A stretch of 64,000 nt of DNA from Fodinisporobacter ferrooxydans. GTDB taxonomy: Bacteria > Bacillota > Bacilli > Tumebacillales > MYW30-H2. The stretch lies in contig NZ_CP089291.1 of the NCBI RefSeq assembly GCF_022818495.1, forward strand, positions 3,799,501 through 3,863,500, in the 5' to 3' direction. Below are positions 2,597-12,953 of this stretch, one piece after another (within the stretch, counting starts at the first letter, position 1; every line of letters begins with the position of its first letter). The position numbers were made by a program, and so were the translations under genes. The notes beneath the pieces were generated by a model. That model did no database searches. It worked only from the letters and a program-made list of their open reading frames with translations, and was not told the DNA's origin.

Positions 2597-5500
2597 CTAG
2601 CATTCTGGCTGGTTTGCACCAATCGCAATCCAAGATAAAAAGCCGTTTATTTCTTCAAAATTTTTCCTTCGAGATACTGTAATGGTTGCCGCTTCTTGCG
2701 TTTGCCCTTTCAATACTGCATAACAATTCGGATGATTCGTCATCGCAACAATCACATAATTTGAACTTGCAAACGGTTCTGCAAATTCAATCGCAACATC
2801 CCTCGATTCCGCCATATTCGGAATCTGAAATGGCGTCACGCCGAATTTCTGCAGAGGGTTTACGTTTACGATTGCTTTTGTAGTTGGAACCGGCATTGTT
2901 TCGTCAACGGCTGAAAGGTATGGTTCATTCGACGAAAGCAGCTTCACATCTGTCTCTTTCTGAGAATACTTGAGTATGGACAAACATTCAGGATCCAAAT
3001 GATAGGGTTTGATCGCACCTGGGCTTATATGTGCCGATTGAATCGCTTCCGGCTGAATGTGTTTGGCATCAATAATCTCTTTGCTTAATTTTTCACTCGT
3101 AATGCTGCGAGGCGCAAGTTTGGTGTTCGTGATCAATTCGTCCTGCAAATGATTTGTCGAGATTGCAAATCTTTGAATATGCTGTTCGCAAATGCTGTTC
3201 TGTTTTAATTTTTCACCTGAAATCGACTCATCCGTCAAATGTTCCGTCAAAATCGAATCAGGTTTCAACTTCGAACCGTCGATCGCGCAATCTGCAAATT
3301 TTTCCGATGTTATGGAACCTTCTTGCAGATGATGTCCGCCTACCGCTCCTGTGTTGATATGATCGCTTTGGATCGCGTTTGCCTGAATATGCCTGCTGCC
3401 AATCGCTGCATCCGTTACATGATTTGTTGTTACAGCATCGTCCTTTATGTGACAAGCTTGAATAACGGCAGGCTGCAATTTTTCACTTGTGATACAATTG
3501 TCCAGCAAATGCTCTGACGTGACCGACACAGCCTTAAGTTTTTGCCCGTCTACCGACTGATCCGCCAATTTGCTGGTTGTAACTGAAACATCTGCGAGAT
3601 GTTCCGTTCGAATCGCTTCTGCTTTTAGATGTTTTGCTTCGACAGCCTCTGTTTGAATGTGTCTGCCCGTAACGGCCTCTGTACTTAGCTTGTCGCTTGT
3701 TACGGATTTTGCGGCAAGTTTTGTGTTTGTCACCGATTCATCTTGAAGTTTGGCTTCCGATACAGATTGATCCTGCAAATGTTCTTCGGTTACCGATCCG
3801 CTGTCAATATGGCTTGCTTGGATCGCCTGATCCGCTATCTTTCCTGCTGTTACGATTCCATCTGCCAAATGATGTTTTTTTATTGCCTCGTCCGCAATTT
3901 TTGATGATTGTATCGACTGGTCTGCCAGCTTTTCCGGAGTAATGGAAAAGTCTTGTATTTTATCCGTTGTAATCCCTTGATTTTGTATGTGCTGCGTTTT
4001 GACTGCTTCCGTCTGTAAATGCAGATCCGTGATTGATTCGGCAGCAATATGTTTGCCTGTGATGGCAAACTGACTGATTTTATCACTCGTTACAGATTCT
4101 GCAGCAAGTTTTTCTGTAACGACAGAACCATTTTGAAAGTGATCCGTTGTAATGATCTGTGGCTGAAAATGTTCCGGTCCAATCGAGTATTGTTGAATGT
4201 GATGTGCCTGTATTGCGGCATCTGCGATTTTTTCACCCGAAATGGCTCCATTCGACAGATGCTGCTGTTTGATTGATTCGTTGGCTAATTTGGAAGATGT
4301 AATGACTTGATCCGCGAGCTTTTCACTTGTAACGGAAAAATCGATCAATTTATCTGTTGATACAGATTCTGAGGCCAGTTTTGCCGTTGTAATCACATGA
4401 TCATTCAGATGCATCGTTTGAACGGCCCGTTCTTTTAAGTGTGCCAAACCAACGGATGCTTCTTGAATCTGTTCTTCTCCAACTGAATTTGCGTCCAACT
4501 GTTTATTTGTGATTGCACGATCTTGGATATGCCGGGTCTGTATGGCTTGCTCGCGAATATGATCAGATGCAATCGCGTGATCGGATAGATGCCATGTTTC
4601 GATGGAACCCGTTTGAAGTTTTTCTGCTGTAATGGATCCGTCTGCGATATGTCTCGTGTGAATGGCATGTTCCCGAATGTTGTCTGAATCAATTGCGTGT
4701 TTTGACAAATGTTCAAAGTGTACGGATTCCGGCGCCAATTGACTTGCTCCGACTGACCCCCGTGCCAAATGTTCCGTTCTGACTGCTTCATCTTGGATAT
4801 GTTGTGTTCCGACCGCTTGATTCGTCAGGTGTTCATGCCGCACCGAATCTTTCGCCAATTTTTCCGCCCGTACAGCCTGATCTGCCAATTGCTCTACACC
4901 GACAGACGCATTGGCAAGATGCTCCGCTTGCACAGCTTTTTTTGCAATATGCTCGGAATCTATGCTGTTTGGGCATAAATGTTGGGATTGAACCGATTTA
5001 TTTTGAATATGCGCGCCATTGATGGAAGCTTCCAAAATTTTTTCCGAAGTAATGGATCGTTCTTGCAAAAGCTTGTTTGTTATTGCTTTTTCTTGAATGT
5101 GATCCGTCTGAATCGCATGATGTACAATGTGTTTCGCTTCTACAGTTGATCGTGAAATCTTTTCGCCGGTTACGGAAGCATCGGCAAGATTATGTTGGTG
5201 GACAGCCGAGATGGCCAATTTCTCCATTGTTACGGATAAATTATCCAGTTTATCTGTAGTTATGGCGAGATTGTCAATTTTATCAGACGTGATTGTCAAA
5301 TCGGCAAGATGATAATTTTTCACTGACTCCATGGCTAATTTTTCATCTGTAACAGCGAAATCCGCCAATTTCTCTGTTGTAACGGTTTGATTGCCGATAT
5401 GCTTTGTTTCGATCACAGACAAAACGAGATGATCAGATGTTACAGAATGATTGGCGATATGATGTGAACGAACCGCCTGCTCGTTTAAATGATAATTTGT

Positions 5501-6598
5501 TATTGACAAAGGCTTTAACTGTTCGGTACCCACTGATTGTTCCGCCAACTTTTCCTCTGTTACCGCAGCATCTCTCAACTTCTCTGTGGTAACCGCTCCT
5601 TCGCCGATCTTTGCCGTAACGATGCAGCCGTGTTCCAAATGGTTTGCCTGGATGGTTCCGCTTCGAATCTTATTCCCTGTCACCGCTTGGTCTTGAATGA
5701 GTTCTGTTGTAACCACTTCTTTGTGAAGATGCTTCGATTCGATCGCTCCCTCGGCGATTTTGGCTGCGTCTAATATTTTATCCGCTAATTTATCTGATGT
5801 GATGCTGCTGTTTTCCAATTTCGATCCGGATATGGAACGATCCCTGATTTTTCTTCCGGTGATGGCGGAATCGACGAGATGCTCTTCCTCGATGCTCGCA
5901 ACTGCGACCTTCCTTGCCGTGACACTATGATCGGCTAATTTTATCGATTGAATCGCGTAATCCGCTATTGCATCGGTATCTATGCTGTCCTGTTTAATTT
6001 TTTCACCGGTAATCGTCCGGTTTGCAATTTTTTCTCCTGTAATCGTTTGATCCACAAGATCATCCGTAAAAATAAACCCGGTTTTCTTCTCTTTTTCTCT
6101 TTCAGATCGAAGCGATTTATGTTGGTCTGGAATTTTATCAGGAATCTTAAATAGCTGTTGATGATCTGCCGCGTCCAAATAGATTTCTGTGTGTTTATTC
6201 GTCGCCCCGATCTCTTTCTTTGTATCTTTTTGTGAATTGGTGCCTTCCACAAGATGAAGCTGCGCCGGCAAATCATGGGAGATGTTTGATTGTTGCCGAT
6301 TGTCAACAACATCCAAGTTGGTTTCCACATCTTTTTTTGTCTCTTTGCTCTCTTCCTTTGCTGCTTTTTGCGCAAGATTCGAACCAGCCACAAGATTCAA
6401 CTGCTCTTGCTTTTTGCTTTCAAAACTTTCCTGTTCGTCCTCTTCGTCAAAATCGTCATCCGCATCTTCCAATTCATTCTCTATCTCTGCAGTCAACCAT
6501 TCCGCCAACGACGGTTGATTCGTTTTTTTCGGCATGCGTTTGGCAATCGAACCGGATTTCCGTTTTTTCTTTTGCAACACACTTCTCATCCTTCCCAT
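2597..6598 (-). CDS. Giant decapeptide-repeat fibre-like protein with WIAG-type tail, 1333 aa
   Basis: Three parts are visible. Residues 1-184 form a charged, low-complexity head: a basic start with KKKRKSG, then an acidic stretch around 40-60, with no signal peptide. Residues 185-1204 are 102 consecutive ten-residue repeats of the type [AS]-[IV]-x-[TS]-x-[KH]-[LI]-x-x-x (for example SVTSDKLADQ-like units). Register is kept from first to last with no net insertion. Residues 1205-1333 form a beta-type tail containing YVIVAMTNHPNC and ending WIAIGANQPEC, which matches the WIAG-tail proteins known in Paenibacillus and relatives. The tail resembles tail-fibre/H-lectin C-terminal domains. The start is uncertain: GGAAGG sits 9 bases before an in-frame GTG at 6580, so the protein may be six residues shorter. 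I infer a trimeric surface or spore fibre. The transcript probably includes the preceding NlpC-like gene, 69 bases away. Confidence 0.8.
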   Translation of the reverse strand: MGRMRSVLQKKKRKSGSIAKRMPKKTNQPSLAEWLTAEIENELEDADDDFDEEDEQESFESKKQEQLNLVAGSNLAQKAAKEESKETKKDVETNLDVVDNRQQSNISHDLPAQLHLVEGTNSQKDTKKEIGATNKHTEIYLDAADHQQLFKIPDKIPDQHKSLRSEREKEKKTGFIFTDDLVDQTITGEKIANRTITGEKIKQDSIDTDAIADYAIQSIKLADHSVTARKVAVASIEEEHLVDSAITGRKIRDRSISGSKLENSSITSDKLADKILDAAKIAEGAIESKHLHKEVVTTELIQDQAVTGNKIRSGTIQANHLEHGCIVTAKIGEGAVTTEKLRDAAVTEEKLAEQSVGTEQLKPLSITNYHLNEQAVRSHHIANHSVTSDHLVLSVIETKHIGNQTVTTEKLADFAVTDEKLAMESVKNYHLADLTITSDKIDNLAITTDKLDNLSVTMEKLAISAVHQHNLADASVTGEKISRSTVEAKHIVHHAIQTDHIQEKAITNKLLQERSITSEKILEASINGAHIQNKSVQSQHLCPNSIDSEHIAKKAVQAEHLANASVGVEQLADQAVRAEKLAKDSVRHEHLTNQAVGTQHIQDEAVRTEHLARGSVGASQLAPESVHFEHLSKHAIDSDNIREHAIHTRHIADGSITAEKLQTGSIETWHLSDHAIASDHIREQAIQTRHIQDRAITNKQLDANSVGEEQIQEASVGLAHLKERAVQTMHLNDHVITTAKLASESVSTDKLIDFSVTSEKLADQVITSSKLANESIKQQHLSNGAISGEKIADAAIQAHHIQQYSIGPEHFQPQIITTDHFQNGSVVTEKLAAESVTSDKISQFAITGKHIAAESITDLHLQTEAVKTQHIQNQGITTDKIQDFSITPEKLADQSIQSSKIADEAIKKHHLADGIVTAGKIADQAIQASHIDSGSVTEEHLQDQSVSEAKLQDESVTNTKLAAKSVTSDKLSTEAVTGRHIQTEAVEAKHLKAEAIRTEHLADVSVTTSKLADQSVDGQKLKAVSVTSEHLLDNCITSEKLQPAVIQACHIKDDAVTTNHVTDAAIGSRHIQANAIQSDHINTGAVGGHHLQEGSITSEKFADCAIDGSKLKPDSILTEHLTDESISGEKLKQNSICEQHIQRFAISTNHLQDELITNTKLAPRSITSEKLSKEIIDAKHIQPEAIQSAHISPGAIKPYHLDPECLSILKYSQKETDVKLLSSNEPYLSAVDETMPVPTTKAIVNVNPLQKFGVTPFQIPNMAESRDVAIEFAEPFASSNYVIVAMTNHPNCYAVLKGQTQEAATITVSRRKNFEEINGFLSWIAIGANQPEC
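2987..6046 (-). repeat. 102 x 30-bp coding tandem repeats
   Basis: The segment coding residues 185-1204 is exactly 3060 bp, or 102 units of 30 bp. DNA units are strongly diverged from each other at third positions while the decapeptide pattern holds. This implies selection at protein level rather than recent slippage. Confidence 0.85.
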
Positions 6599-6667
6599 AC
6601 ATTTTATCCATGTATGATATTCACCTACCCAGTTCAGGTGTGATTGGGAAGTTATGATTCCATTTCG

Positions 6668-7153
6668 CTAATTCACTTGATGAAAATACTCACTGCCAGC
6701 CAAATCTTCCGGCAGCACTTCGTCTTCCGGCATAGTCAAACCTGCGAATGTATAAGCGTCTCTGACAAACCTTGCGCAAAGAAATCGATAGGATTTCTTC
6801 TGCCTCAGCATATAGTAAAAGAAGCGGGCAAATACATTCGACGTATCGAATGGATTTCTGATATAGGAACGTAAGAAAAACAAAATTCGGCCCTTTTGAA
6901 AATCATTCAATACGTCATTGTAACGATATACATCATATTCTTCCTTGTAAGCGGAAAGAAATCGATAGCACAAGTTTTGCAACCATTGAGCTTCTAAAAC
7001 CCTTCCACAACCGATGTACATCGATACATACTGATATTTGCTTTTTGTGAGCCATTGAATCCATCTGGCTCTGCGAACAAATATCAAATCCCCAAGTTCT
7101 AATTTCAAATTTGCACCACGAACCACTATAAAATCGTCAGCCTGCCATTCCAT
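6668..7153 (-). CDS. NlpC/P60 (YiiX-like) papain-fold protein, 161 aa, probably without catalytic His
   Basis: The pattern GDLIFVRR, then VSMYIGCGRVLEA, then FLCARFVRDAYTFAG matches the circularly permuted NlpC/P60 (YiiX/YebB-like) cysteine hydrolases. In that family the first Gly-Asp starts the barrel, a His precedes the YIG strand, and the Cys heads the last helix. Here the Cys (in LCARF) is kept, but the usual His position reads Tyr in KYQYVSMYIG. The enzyme may therefore be inactive or use another residue. There is no signal peptide, so a cytoplasmic or spore location is likely. It lies directly upstream of the giant repeat protein on the same strand and may be its partner. The family call is good; the substrate is unknown. 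Confidence 0.65.
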   Translation of the reverse strand: MEWQADDFIVVRGANLKLELGDLIFVRRARWIQWLTKSKYQYVSMYIGCGRVLEAQWLQNLCYRFLSAYKEEYDVYRYNDVLNDFQKGRILFFLRSYIRNPFDTSNVFARFFYYMLRQKKSYRFLCARFVRDAYTFAGLTMPEDEVLPEDLAGSEYFHQVN

Positions 7154-10533: not shown

Positions 10534-10935
10534 ATGGAGCAAAAAATTTCACGGTTCGGACGCCGATTGTTGCTGTATATTCGTTGGATGATCGTCGCCT
10601 TGATTCTGCTCACTTTGTTTATCGGAGTCATCGGATTTGTCATAAAGTGGGGCGAAATTATCATCCATCCCGAACATTTTCTCGCCAACTTCCGGACGAT
10701 TGCAGAGGATATTTTCTCACTTGTATTAATCTATGAAATCCTGGATTTGATTCGGACATTGTCTCCCAATCGACTGATGGATGTCCTGCTTACCGTTTTG
10801 GCAAGAAAGATTCTTTTGTCTACGAATGAAATACACTTGGCCATCGACGTGGCGGCATTTGTTGTGATTTTAATTCCAAGGCTGATTTTAATTTTCTTTT
10901 CTCGACGGTTCGAACAGCAGCAAACTACATCATAA
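10534..10935 (+). CDS. PsiE-like membrane protein, 133 aa
   Basis: Four predicted membrane helices: about 13-38, 55-75 (region AEDIFSLVLIYEILDLI), 80-100 and 103-122. The Glu-bearing helix 2 followed by LMDVLLTVLARKILL resembles the phosphate-starvation-inducible PsiE family, whose biochemical role is unknown. The ATG follows AAAAGGAG at a good distance. It lies 25 bases after the chemotaxis receptor, so it is probably in the same transcript, and is closed by the hairpin at 10980-11006. The assignment is by helix pattern, and other small membrane families remain possible. Confidence 0.6.
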   Translation: MEQKISRFGRRLLLYIRWMIVALILLTLFIGVIGFVIKWGEIIIHPEHFLANFRTIAEDIFSLVLIYEILDLIRTLSPNRLMDVLLTVLARKILLSTNEIHLAIDVAAFVVILIPRLILIFFSRRFEQQQTTS

Positions 10936-10979
10936 GCATTCCATGAATACGTCTGAAACCGGCAATCCCATGCAAAGTT

Positions 10980-11006
10980 CCCGCTTCACTTGTCACGTGA
11001 AACGGG
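10980..11006. terminator. Convergent terminator between psiE-like gene and the B12 operon
   Basis: CCCGCTTCAC pairs with GTGAAACGGG. The stem has one C-A mismatch on the plus strand but a G-U pair on the minus. It overlaps the stop codon of the last cobalamin gene. T-rich sequence follows on the plus side. Confidence 0.6.
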
Positions 11007-12833
11007 ATCTTTTCCATTTACCGGACCGCTTGAAAAAAAACTTCCACCCCCCCATGTATTGTAGTGAATCAGCGTTTGCAGATCGAGCCGTTGCCCCCAG
11101 CCGACGCGTTCCAACACGGGAATTTCCGGAAAATAAGGGGTGTATCCGAGCGTTAAAATGGCAACAGGATCAATGGAATCCGGCATATGCAAAATTTCCC
11201 GGATGTTTTGTTTTTTATAAATGCTGACCCAGCCCAAAGCGACTCCTTCCGCCCGCGCTGCCAGCCAGATGTTTTCAATGGCGCAGGCGGTGGACATCAG
11301 ATCCGTTTCCGGAATCGTGTTTCTTCCCAATACATGGGGCCCGCCGCGATTCGGATCATTCGTTACACAAATCGATAGCGGCGCTTGTGTAAGCCCTTCG
11401 ACTTTCAGCCGAAGATAATAATCTTTTTGCAAATCTGCGTAGTGTTCCGCTGCTGACACACGTTCCCGTTCGACTTCTTCCTGAATGTTCTGCAAGATCT
11501 GTTTATCATGGATGATGATAAAACTCCAGGGCTGCATGTAGCCGACAGACGGAGCATGGTGAGCGGCTTGCAAAATCCGGCTGAGGACGTCTGCGGGAAT
11601 CGGGTCCGGCAAAAAGACGCGGATATCCCGCCGCGCCAGGATGGCTTTGTAAACGGCTCGCCTTTCCTCTTCCGTAAAATCCTTTGGAATCGGGGAAACA
11701 CGGGCATCCGTGGCATTTCCGAAAGGATCGTCTTCCTTATTCAAAAGATCCTCCTGGATGTTTTGCAAATGCGGATTTGTCACTCGGGCATCTGCAAACG
11801 TTGCCGTTTCCGCCAATACGTTACAGGCATTGCGGATGACAGGAAGCAGGAATAACCCTCCGGAGCCTTCCCCGAGACGCAGATTCCACTGGATGAGCGG
11901 CTGTAAATCCAGGCTTTGCAAAACATAGGAATGAGCAGGTTCAGCTGATTGGTGTGAAGCGATGAGAAAATCCTTGATCCCAGGTTTCAACCGTTCCGCC
12001 AACAGGGCCGCCGCGCCTGTGATCAAACCGTCGAGCACAATCGGGATCCGACGATTGGCTGCGGCAACCATCGCACCCGCCAGCGCAGCAATTTCAAACC
12101 CGCCCAATTTGGCAAGCACATCCCAAGGATCTGACAAAACCGGCTGGTTGACACAGATCGCCTCTGATACGACTCGTTGCTTCTGCGCTACTTGGTCGGC
12201 AGAAATGCCGGTGCCATGTCCGGCCACATCGGCAACCGGCAATTCCAGCATGACCGCGACCATGGCGGCAGATGCCGTCGTATTGCCGATGCCCATTTCG
12301 CCAAGCAACAGCAGATCATGGCCTGCTTCGATTGCTTGCTCGGCTGTTTCCATGCCGGCATACACAGCTTGATACGCTTGCTCTTTCGTCATGGCCGGGC
12401 CTTTTGTAAAATCCCTTGTGCCATTTGCCACTTTGCGCATTCGGCAATTCGGATGGCGAACACGTGTCCTTACACCGACATCCACCACGCACAAGTCCGC
12501 TTGCTCATTGCGCGCCAACACGCTGCTGACAGCTGTTCCCATGCAGATATTGACAGCCATCTCTTCTGTCACTTTCGCTTCATATCGAGATACTTCCGCA
12601 GTTTCGGCAACACCATGGTCTGCTGCAAAAATGATCGCAGCAGGTTTTTCGATCACCGGAATGGTTGTTCCGGTGATTCCGCTGATTTTCCCGATCAATT
12701 CTTCGATGAGCCCAAGGCTGCCAAGGGGCATTGTCAGGTTATTCAGCCGCTCTCTCGTCCGTTTCATCGAATGCCGGTCGAGACTGCCAATGCTTGCGAC
12801 TCGTTTTTCGATTTCCTTTTGATAGTCCACCAT
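10986..12833 (-). CDS. cobT-bluB: CobT-BluB fusion: DMB phosphoribosyltransferase plus DMB synthase, 615 aa
   Basis: Residues 1-348 are nicotinate-nucleotide:dimethylbenzimidazole phosphoribosyltransferase (CobT), with the TMPLGSLG start, FAADHGVAE, GEMGIGNTT and the catalytic-Glu region RLGEGSGG near 322. Residues about 385-600 are BluB, the flavin-destructase that makes 5,6-dimethylbenzimidazole from FMN and O2. They show RRDIRVFLPDPI, HHAPSVGYMQPWSF and GVALGWVSIY. A 35-residue linker joins the two. One protein would therefore both make and activate the lower ligand. The start is at MVDYQ, with AGAGGAG six bases before. It is the last gene of the operon, 120 bases after cbiA. The C-terminal 25 residues are Gly/Ser-rich and unassigned. 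Confidence 0.93.
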   Translation of the reverse strand: MVDYQKEIEKRVASIGSLDRHSMKRTRERLNNLTMPLGSLGLIEELIGKISGITGTTIPVIEKPAAIIFAADHGVAETAEVSRYEAKVTEEMAVNICMGTAVSSVLARNEQADLCVVDVGVRTRVRHPNCRMRKVANGTRDFTKGPAMTKEQAYQAVYAGMETAEQAIEAGHDLLLLGEMGIGNTTASAAMVAVMLELPVADVAGHGTGISADQVAQKQRVVSEAICVNQPVLSDPWDVLAKLGGFEIAALAGAMVAAANRRIPIVLDGLITGAAALLAERLKPGIKDFLIASHQSAEPAHSYVLQSLDLQPLIQWNLRLGEGSGGLFLLPVIRNACNVLAETATFADARVTNPHLQNIQEDLLNKEDDPFGNATDARVSPIPKDFTEEERRAVYKAILARRDIRVFLPDPIPADVLSRILQAAHHAPSVGYMQPWSFIIIHDKQILQNIQEEVERERVSAAEHYADLQKDYYLRLKVEGLTQAPLSICVTNDPNRGGPHVLGRNTIPETDLMSTACAIENIWLAARAEGVALGWVSIYKKQNIREILHMPDSIDPVAILTLGYTPYFPEIPVLERVGWGQRLDLQTLIHYNTWGGGSFFSSGPVNGKDPVSRDK

Positions 12834-12953
12834 TTTCGACTCCTCTGCGTTCGCTGCACAAGTATTCGAATCCTGAAAAAGCGATACAACATCGCAATAT
12901 TTTTGAAAATTCAATTTGGCGAATCCAAGTTTTCTTTCGATAATCATTTGAAA

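Follow-up and report, generated by a model that had tools for sequence, protein, structure and literature searches.

A WIAG-tail decapeptide-repeat protein of Fodinisporobacter ferrooxydans as a candidate spore-surface fibre

What is the role of a protein composed largely of 102 decapeptides in Fodinisporobacter ferrooxydans, and does the papain-like protein encoded beside it belong to the same system? The gene lies in a 64,000-nucleotide stretch of contig NZ_CP089291.1, hereafter the window, as a minus-strand ORF (2597–6598) encoding 1333 amino acids. The ORF, the register of its repeats, and its match to the NCBIfam model NF012201 showed that the feature is real, a WIAG-tail decapeptide-repeat fibre gene that is a member of a named family. 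The protein begins with a head (aa 1–183; 6050–6598, minus strand) that is basic and then acidic and whose final 10 residues form a degenerate repeat. The 102 in-register decapeptides follow (aa 184–1203; 2990–6049, minus), then a linker modelled mostly at low confidence (aa 1204–1248; 2855–2989, minus), and finally the WIAG-tail domain (aa 1249–1327; 2618–2854, minus), which has a predicted H-type-lectin or fibre-tip fold. An earlier sequence-only reading of this DNA had described a charged head without a signal peptide, and the head indeed contained neither a signal-like segment nor any hydrophobic segment. The F. ferrooxydans genome encodes one WIAG-tail gene.

The repeat consensus was x-(S/A)-(I/V)-T-(T/S)-E-(H/K)-(L/I)-A-D, with Ile or Val at position 3 in 101 of 102 units and Leu or Ile at position 8 in 97 of 102; Ser and Thr made up 17.6% of the repeat residues. 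The count of exactly 102 decapeptides in one register, made earlier by inspection, was reproduced from aa 184 to aa 1203 with zero indels. A position-weight scan counted 103 units, the extra one being the degenerate unit at aa 174–183, which scored 2.97. Scores of the 102 units had a minimum of 4.78 and a median of 14.8; for random decamers, the 99th percentile was 1.4 and the 99.9th was 6.4. The units had also been described as well diverged in DNA, in agreement with a mean pairwise identity of 26% in protein and 43% in DNA and with no identical pair. Codon identity at identical residues was 0.398 versus 0.390 expected from codon usage, no higher-order periodicity was marked (largest lag z, 1.85), and Tandem Repeats Finder reported no array inside the repeat block. 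Because the units are so diverged and their synonymous codons randomised, we infer an old array, held in register by selection acting on the protein rather than through recent duplication.

The sequence-only reading had named disorder of the repeat region as an outcome that would count against a rigid filament. AlphaFold2 predicted units 40–59 as ordered (20 repeats; mean pLDDT, 84.5; pTM, 0.53; alignment using 42 of 81 references), with fairly even confidence and, in almost all units, a helical turn of three residues. A Foldseek search of this model against the PDB returned zero chains at E values up to 10; since repetitive queries may be filtered, the missing match is not evidence of a new fold. 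Sequence comparison of the repeats with solved structures gave weak matches to DotG/IcmE (E = 3e-7) and, over 42 residues, to "9eg4 orf16" (E = 5e-4). NCBIfam matches to DotG, HetL, and PipB2 all lay far below their own cut-offs and were taken to reflect repeat composition, and the Pfam Decapeptide repeat region (PF25296) scored 22.6 bits, below its gathering cut-off of 45. The repeats strongly matched PHROG tail-fibre families, including phrog_892 (E = 8.6e-155, in 17 stretches) and others.

The tail matched NF012201 with 101.6 bits (curated cut-off, 33) over positions 1–79 of 80 (E = 1.8e-29). In an AlphaFold2 model of the last 16 repeats plus the tail, based on an alignment of 38 of 44 relatives, the block of aa 1249–1327 had pLDDT values of 80–97. 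The best structural matches of the model were the LKA1 tailspike tip (Z = 10.8) and the R1 pyocin fibre tip (Z = 9.7), and the H-lectins discoidin II (H-lectin domain; Z = 9.4) and Helix aspersa agglutinin (Z = 9.1) matched over 80–88 residues. Phage and pyocin fibre tips filled the remaining rows down to Z = 7.4, and unrelated beta proteins appeared from Z = 6.0. Foldseek matches were modest, with two at E ≤ 0.001, the best being SLL-2 (6e-4); in BFVD, phage tail fibres ranked first. The H-lectin Pfam model was absent from the Pfam scan of the fibre protein at E values up to 1. The resemblance of a compact beta tail to tail-fibre and H-lectin ends, suggested earlier from the letters, was thus recovered as a predicted fold at Z values of 9–11. 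Because members of the H-type-lectin fold family are commonly trimers, the fibre protein is, by analogy, probably trimeric.

Upstream, on the same strand and separated from the fibre gene by 69 bp, ORF 6668–7153 (minus) encodes a 161-aa permuted papain-like protein of the C92/YiiX type. Its earlier description as a papain-fold neighbour was right in kind, albeit based on a weak likeness: it scored 23.8 bits against Pfam Peptidase_C92 (gathering cut-off, 27) and 17.9 bits against NLPC_P60 (gathering cut-off, 23), below both thresholds, and a relative in genome G003 passes Peptidase_C92 with 49.7 bits. Four aligned relatives carry the motif YSHVA, the His of which we take to be a catalytic residue; the corresponding motif of the window protein is YQYVS, and Cys126 is kept. 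Since Tyr42 replaces the conserved His, the protein is probably not an active enzyme.

The same reading had paired the two genes, with the NlpC-like protein as a dedicated partner of the fibre and conservation of the pair as a check. No C92-like homologue was found beside any other WIAG gene among the loci searched. A WIAG ORF was called in 75 of the named loci (all but L030, L061, and L067); 65 of these include at least 1 kb upstream of it, and the upstream stretch of interrupted WIAG genes is partly the gene's own front. Among the 14 genomes of the order, a C92-like relative occurred in five and the WIAG domain in two, and both occurred solely in F. ferrooxydans. The pair was therefore not conserved in any relative as far as searched, and the proposed partnership was not borne out. 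Two C92-like relatives, one in the F. ferrooxydans genome itself (L098:9165–9635) and one in genome G004 (L097:9961–10437), are located among phage tail genes, and distant homologues, ~24% identical, occur in 18 Bacillus phage records, whereas the closest relative (L096, in G003; 36–39% identity) lies among non-phage genes. From these comparisons, we read the C92-like protein as a lineage-specific neighbour and not as a conserved partner of the fibre.

A profile search, in which the genome of F. ferrooxydans was counted, found the WIAG domain in 78 genomes of the class (31 genera) out of 299 sampled (118 genera), in 7 of 41 relatives, and in the 2 of 14 genomes of the order already mentioned. 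The 78 named WIAG loci, a biased sample found by a single peptide pattern, come from Paenibacillus, Brevibacillus, Fontibacillus, Thermoactinomyces vulgaris, and a few unplaced relatives, and the head–repeats–tail plan is common to the Paenibacillus, Brevibacillus, and Thermoactinomyces members. Among 63 genes with a head of at least 40 aa (window gene included), repeat counts ranged from 38 to 259 with a median of 141, so that the 102 repeats of the window protein, once called giant, are large only in a relative sense and fall below the family median. The 66 uncut relatives had 13 to 259 repeats; the lowest counts, 13 (L075) and 38 (L047), belong together with L034 and L039 to interrupted-looking ORFs, and the apparent intact minimum was ~48 repeats, in Brevibacillus. 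Near strains agreed (139 and 139 in two P. taichungensis loci; 48–57 in six Brevibacillus loci), and three Paenibacillus relatives (L019, L026, and L027) had 194, 156, and 203 repeats. With apparently intact relatives at ~48–259 repeats, the fixed-length filament once proposed was abandoned. Runs of at least three units were all in one register in 49 of 66 relatives and were not in the other 17. No signal-like hydrophobic stretch was detected in the first ~70 residues of the 63 heads (window gene included), 37 of which contain a VDNP-type motif.

Two observations on individual loci are recorded here. The WIAG genes of L047, L011, L039, and L034 look interrupted, by an assembly gap or a frameshift, and their front part, with the head and the promoter motif, forms a separate ORF. 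In Brevibacillus massiliensis, two tandem WIAG-tail genes (L009:6914–10498 and 10726–12948) stand without the tested glycosylation genes nearby.

We compared the occurrence of the WIAG domain with that of the sporulation gene spoIVA. Every one of the 78 WIAG-positive genomes had a spoIVA match over the cut-off. The whole sample contained 207 such genomes out of 299, which leaves 129 among the 221 WIAG-negative ones (Fisher p = 2e-15, inflated by shared ancestry); both censuses are assumed to cover the same 299 genomes, 69 of the spoIVA set being unlisted and the listed ones agreeing. F. ferrooxydans itself carries spoIVA. All 14 genomes of the order match spoIVA, yet 12 of them are without WIAG, and the fibre is therefore dispensable for sporulation.

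The genomic neighbourhoods of the named loci linked the family to sugar genes. We tested the 61 named loci with 20 kb of sequence (the 17 of 78 that were shorter were left out) against 37 control stretches from Paenibacillus-type WIAG genomes, which were not position-matched and from which 3 of an original 40, on tiny contigs, had been dropped. An RmlA/SpsI-like nucleotidyltransferase was encoded in 48 of the 61 WIAG loci, a GT2 glycosyltransferase in 42, a YheC/D ATP-grasp protein in 37, and a phosphatidylserine decarboxylase homologue in 26, each versus none of the 37 controls. One control stretch contained a GT4 homologue. Any tested glycosylation gene occurred in 48/61 WIAG loci versus 1/37 controls; the corresponding Fisher p-values overstate independence because the loci share ancestry. 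A looser clustering, which placed GT2, for example, in 57 loci, was kept out of this comparison. The RmlA-like protein scored below its equivalog cut-off, and SpsI is a label given by similarity. The linkage to glycosylation genes held in 42 of 52 Paenibacillus-type loci and in 6 of 8 Brevibacillus loci, there with partly different genes, and in none from Thermoactinomyces. YheC/D proteins are coat-associated. Among the 13 loci without any tested glycosylation gene, the Thermoactinomyces locus L084 encodes YheC/D ~5 kb or less from the WIAG gene, and in L095, the second of the two WIAG loci in the order of F. ferrooxydans, YheC/D lies ~2 kb away; 5–18 YheC/D matches per genome were present among the matches listed (45 genomes). 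Homologues of a GT-D-fold protein (PF22882; L016:13860–15047 and similar) were additionally observed in 21/61 WIAG loci versus 0/37 controls.

The window gene departs from this pattern, in that the tested glycosylation and YheC/D queries found zero homologues across the 64-kb window. A separate island in the same genome, at 2.69–2.71 Mb, contains an SpsI-like protein (52.5%), a GT2 protein (47.5%), and, by eye, more sugar-type genes; YheC/D is encoded at 2.68 Mb. Beside the SpsI-like gene, at L145:4349–5059 (~2.696 Mb, minus strand), a 236-aa protein with LTAASMLVQPQN-type repeats and no NCBIfam match is a candidate second spore-surface repeat protein. Within the window, a 653-aa ORF (10986–12947, minus) inside a cobalamin gene cluster fuses a DBI_PRT domain (CobT-type phosphoribosyltransferase) with a Nitroreductase domain, presumably of the BluB type.

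Promoter scans used the strict sigma-K consensus, with other called genes of >150 aa in the same loci as controls. The consensus occurred upstream of 11/67 WIAG genes versus 6/776 control genes, and of 11/67 versus 23/776 when a wider upstream stretch was considered. The form [A/T]C-N17-CATATG[A/T]T[A/G] occurred upstream of 42/67 WIAG genes versus 4/776 controls, and three of these four controls are the fronts of WIAG genes that are interrupted; this form was defined on the same loci in which it was counted and, among the matches listed, occurs in Paenibacillus-type loci only. A sigma-70-type scan performed no better than shuffles (11 found versus a mean of 9.7). In the intergenic stretch 5′ of the window gene (6599–6667, minus), CATA boxes were present and no strict sigma-K site was found; the best site had one mismatch, and 118 of 776 controls were equal or better. 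The spore-surface location offered in the sequence-only reading consequently gained support at the level of the family, from spoIVA, the sugar genes, and the promoters; it is not apparent from the surroundings or the promoter of the window gene itself. In Bacillus subtilis, the sps loci are sigma-K driven, according to an excerpt of PMC7439481.

We propose, with a probability of about 0.6, that the protein forms a fibre on the spore surface that carries sugars and is probably a trimer, a counterpart of BclA with a stalk of decapeptides; for the window gene, the proposal is drawn from its relatives. The protein would be made in the mother cell during late sporulation, and synthesis there would make a signal peptide unnecessary. 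The charged head may anchor the fibre to the coat or exosporium, with the decapeptide stalk pointing outward from the spore and the H-lectin-like tail, whose fold is predicted, joining three chains into a distal knob, as the fold family suggests. Across the family, the adjoining sps-type glycosyltransferases probably add sugars to the Ser and Thr residues of the stalk; for the window gene, enzymes of this type encoded elsewhere in the genome could do so. The probably inactive C92-like protein would stand outside this conserved machine.

The repeats and the tip could also have been drawn from a phage, and the strong PHROG matches, the phage- and pyocin-like tail tip, and the C92-like homologues among phage tail genes and in Bacillus phage records are what would be expected of a domesticated or still mobile tail fibre that had brought the C92-like protein along from its tail module. 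We nevertheless regard this as unlikely. The gene is chromosomal and lies outside any phage tail module: the eight ORFs around the gene pair gave zero PHROGs of the phage structural category, and the neighbours named by profiles are a fumarase, a chemoreceptor, and cobalamin enzymes; several small ORFs have no match. Moreover, the WIAG tail, used as a single-sequence tblastn query, hit nothing in the 50,697 phage and 72,556 plasmid records searched, although the available part of PMC12085832 annotates one tail fibre of an algal virus with a WIAG-tail. Most named WIAG genes adjoin spore-sugar genes, the domain is confined to spoIVA-bearing genomes in the sample, and the nearest C92-like relative has a non-phage setting. 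A remote phage origin of the fibre modules, which share both the decapeptide-type repeats and the tip fold with phage and R-pyocin tail fibres, is possible.

Glycosyltransferases and RmlA homologues serve vegetative glycans too, and lectin-like tips are typical of adhesins, so that the protein might instead act on the vegetative cell surface or be secreted as an adhesin; the glycosylation genes would then belong to an S-layer or capsule. The lack of a signal-like segment in all 63 heads, the co-occurrence of spoIVA in 78 of 78 genomes, and the YheC/D neighbours and sigma-K-like promoters argue against such a role, which we find no likelier than a phage fibre. It is more doubtful still that the two genes form one system in which the C92-like protein would act on the fibre by processing, cross-linking, or docking it. 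Their shared strand and 69-bp spacing would permit co-transcription, but the homologue is absent beside the other WIAG genes searched, only one of the 14 genomes of the order has both genes, and the four aligned relatives have His where this protein has Tyr42. The upstream protein resembles the C92/YiiX permuted papain-like amidases and NlpC/P60 proteins in its weak profile match and retained Cys126, and differs from them in falling below both cut-offs and in its Tyr.

The point of interest in the spore-surface reading is at the family level, namely sugar-linked, H-lectin-tipped decapeptide fibres of the spore surface. Compared with other NF012201 proteins, the window protein is alike in its tail, which is over the cut-off, and in its head–repeats–tail plan; it differs in a head without the VDNP-type motif, in the absence of a tested sugar gene nearby, and in being preceded by a C92-like gene. 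We found no description of the family's function in the open-access literature searched, in the excerpts of which the term WIAG-tail appears only as gene-table annotation. Given its distribution over genomes and genera of the class, a sizeable share of spore-formers may carry a hardly studied surface fibre. We tentatively suggest that the WIAG family might represent an undescribed class of spore nap. Its filaments, made of glycosylated decapeptides and ending in a lectin-type knob, would replace collagen-like BclA in spore-formers such as Paenibacillus, Brevibacillus, and Thermoactinomyces; the knob may bind glycans that the linked glycosyltransferases attach to neighbouring filaments, so that contacts between sugar and lectin would cross-link the spore surface.

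The closest parallels are BclA and F-BclA of the Bacillus cereus group. An excerpt of PMC10470788 describes BclA as a glycosylated protein with an N-terminal domain, a strain-specific number of repeats, and a trimer-promoting C-terminal domain, and the accessible portion of PMC11952670 describes F-BclA as a collagen-like glycoprotein of the exosporium nap with a C1q-like knob. WIAG fibres share with these proteins a short head, a variable repeat number, and a conserved C-terminal knob. BclA and F-BclA are glycosylated, and WIAG fibres, which have sugar genes alongside in most relatives, presumably are as well. The stalk differs, being built of decapeptides instead of collagen Gly-X-Y triplets, and no collagen model matched the fibre protein in the Pfam and NCBIfam scans; the knob is predicted to be H-lectin-like, in contrast to the C1q-like knob of F-BclA. 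If the proposal is true, spore naps arose on unrelated scaffolds, with collagen or decapeptide stalks and C1q-like or H-lectin-like knobs, and with sugar genes linked to both.
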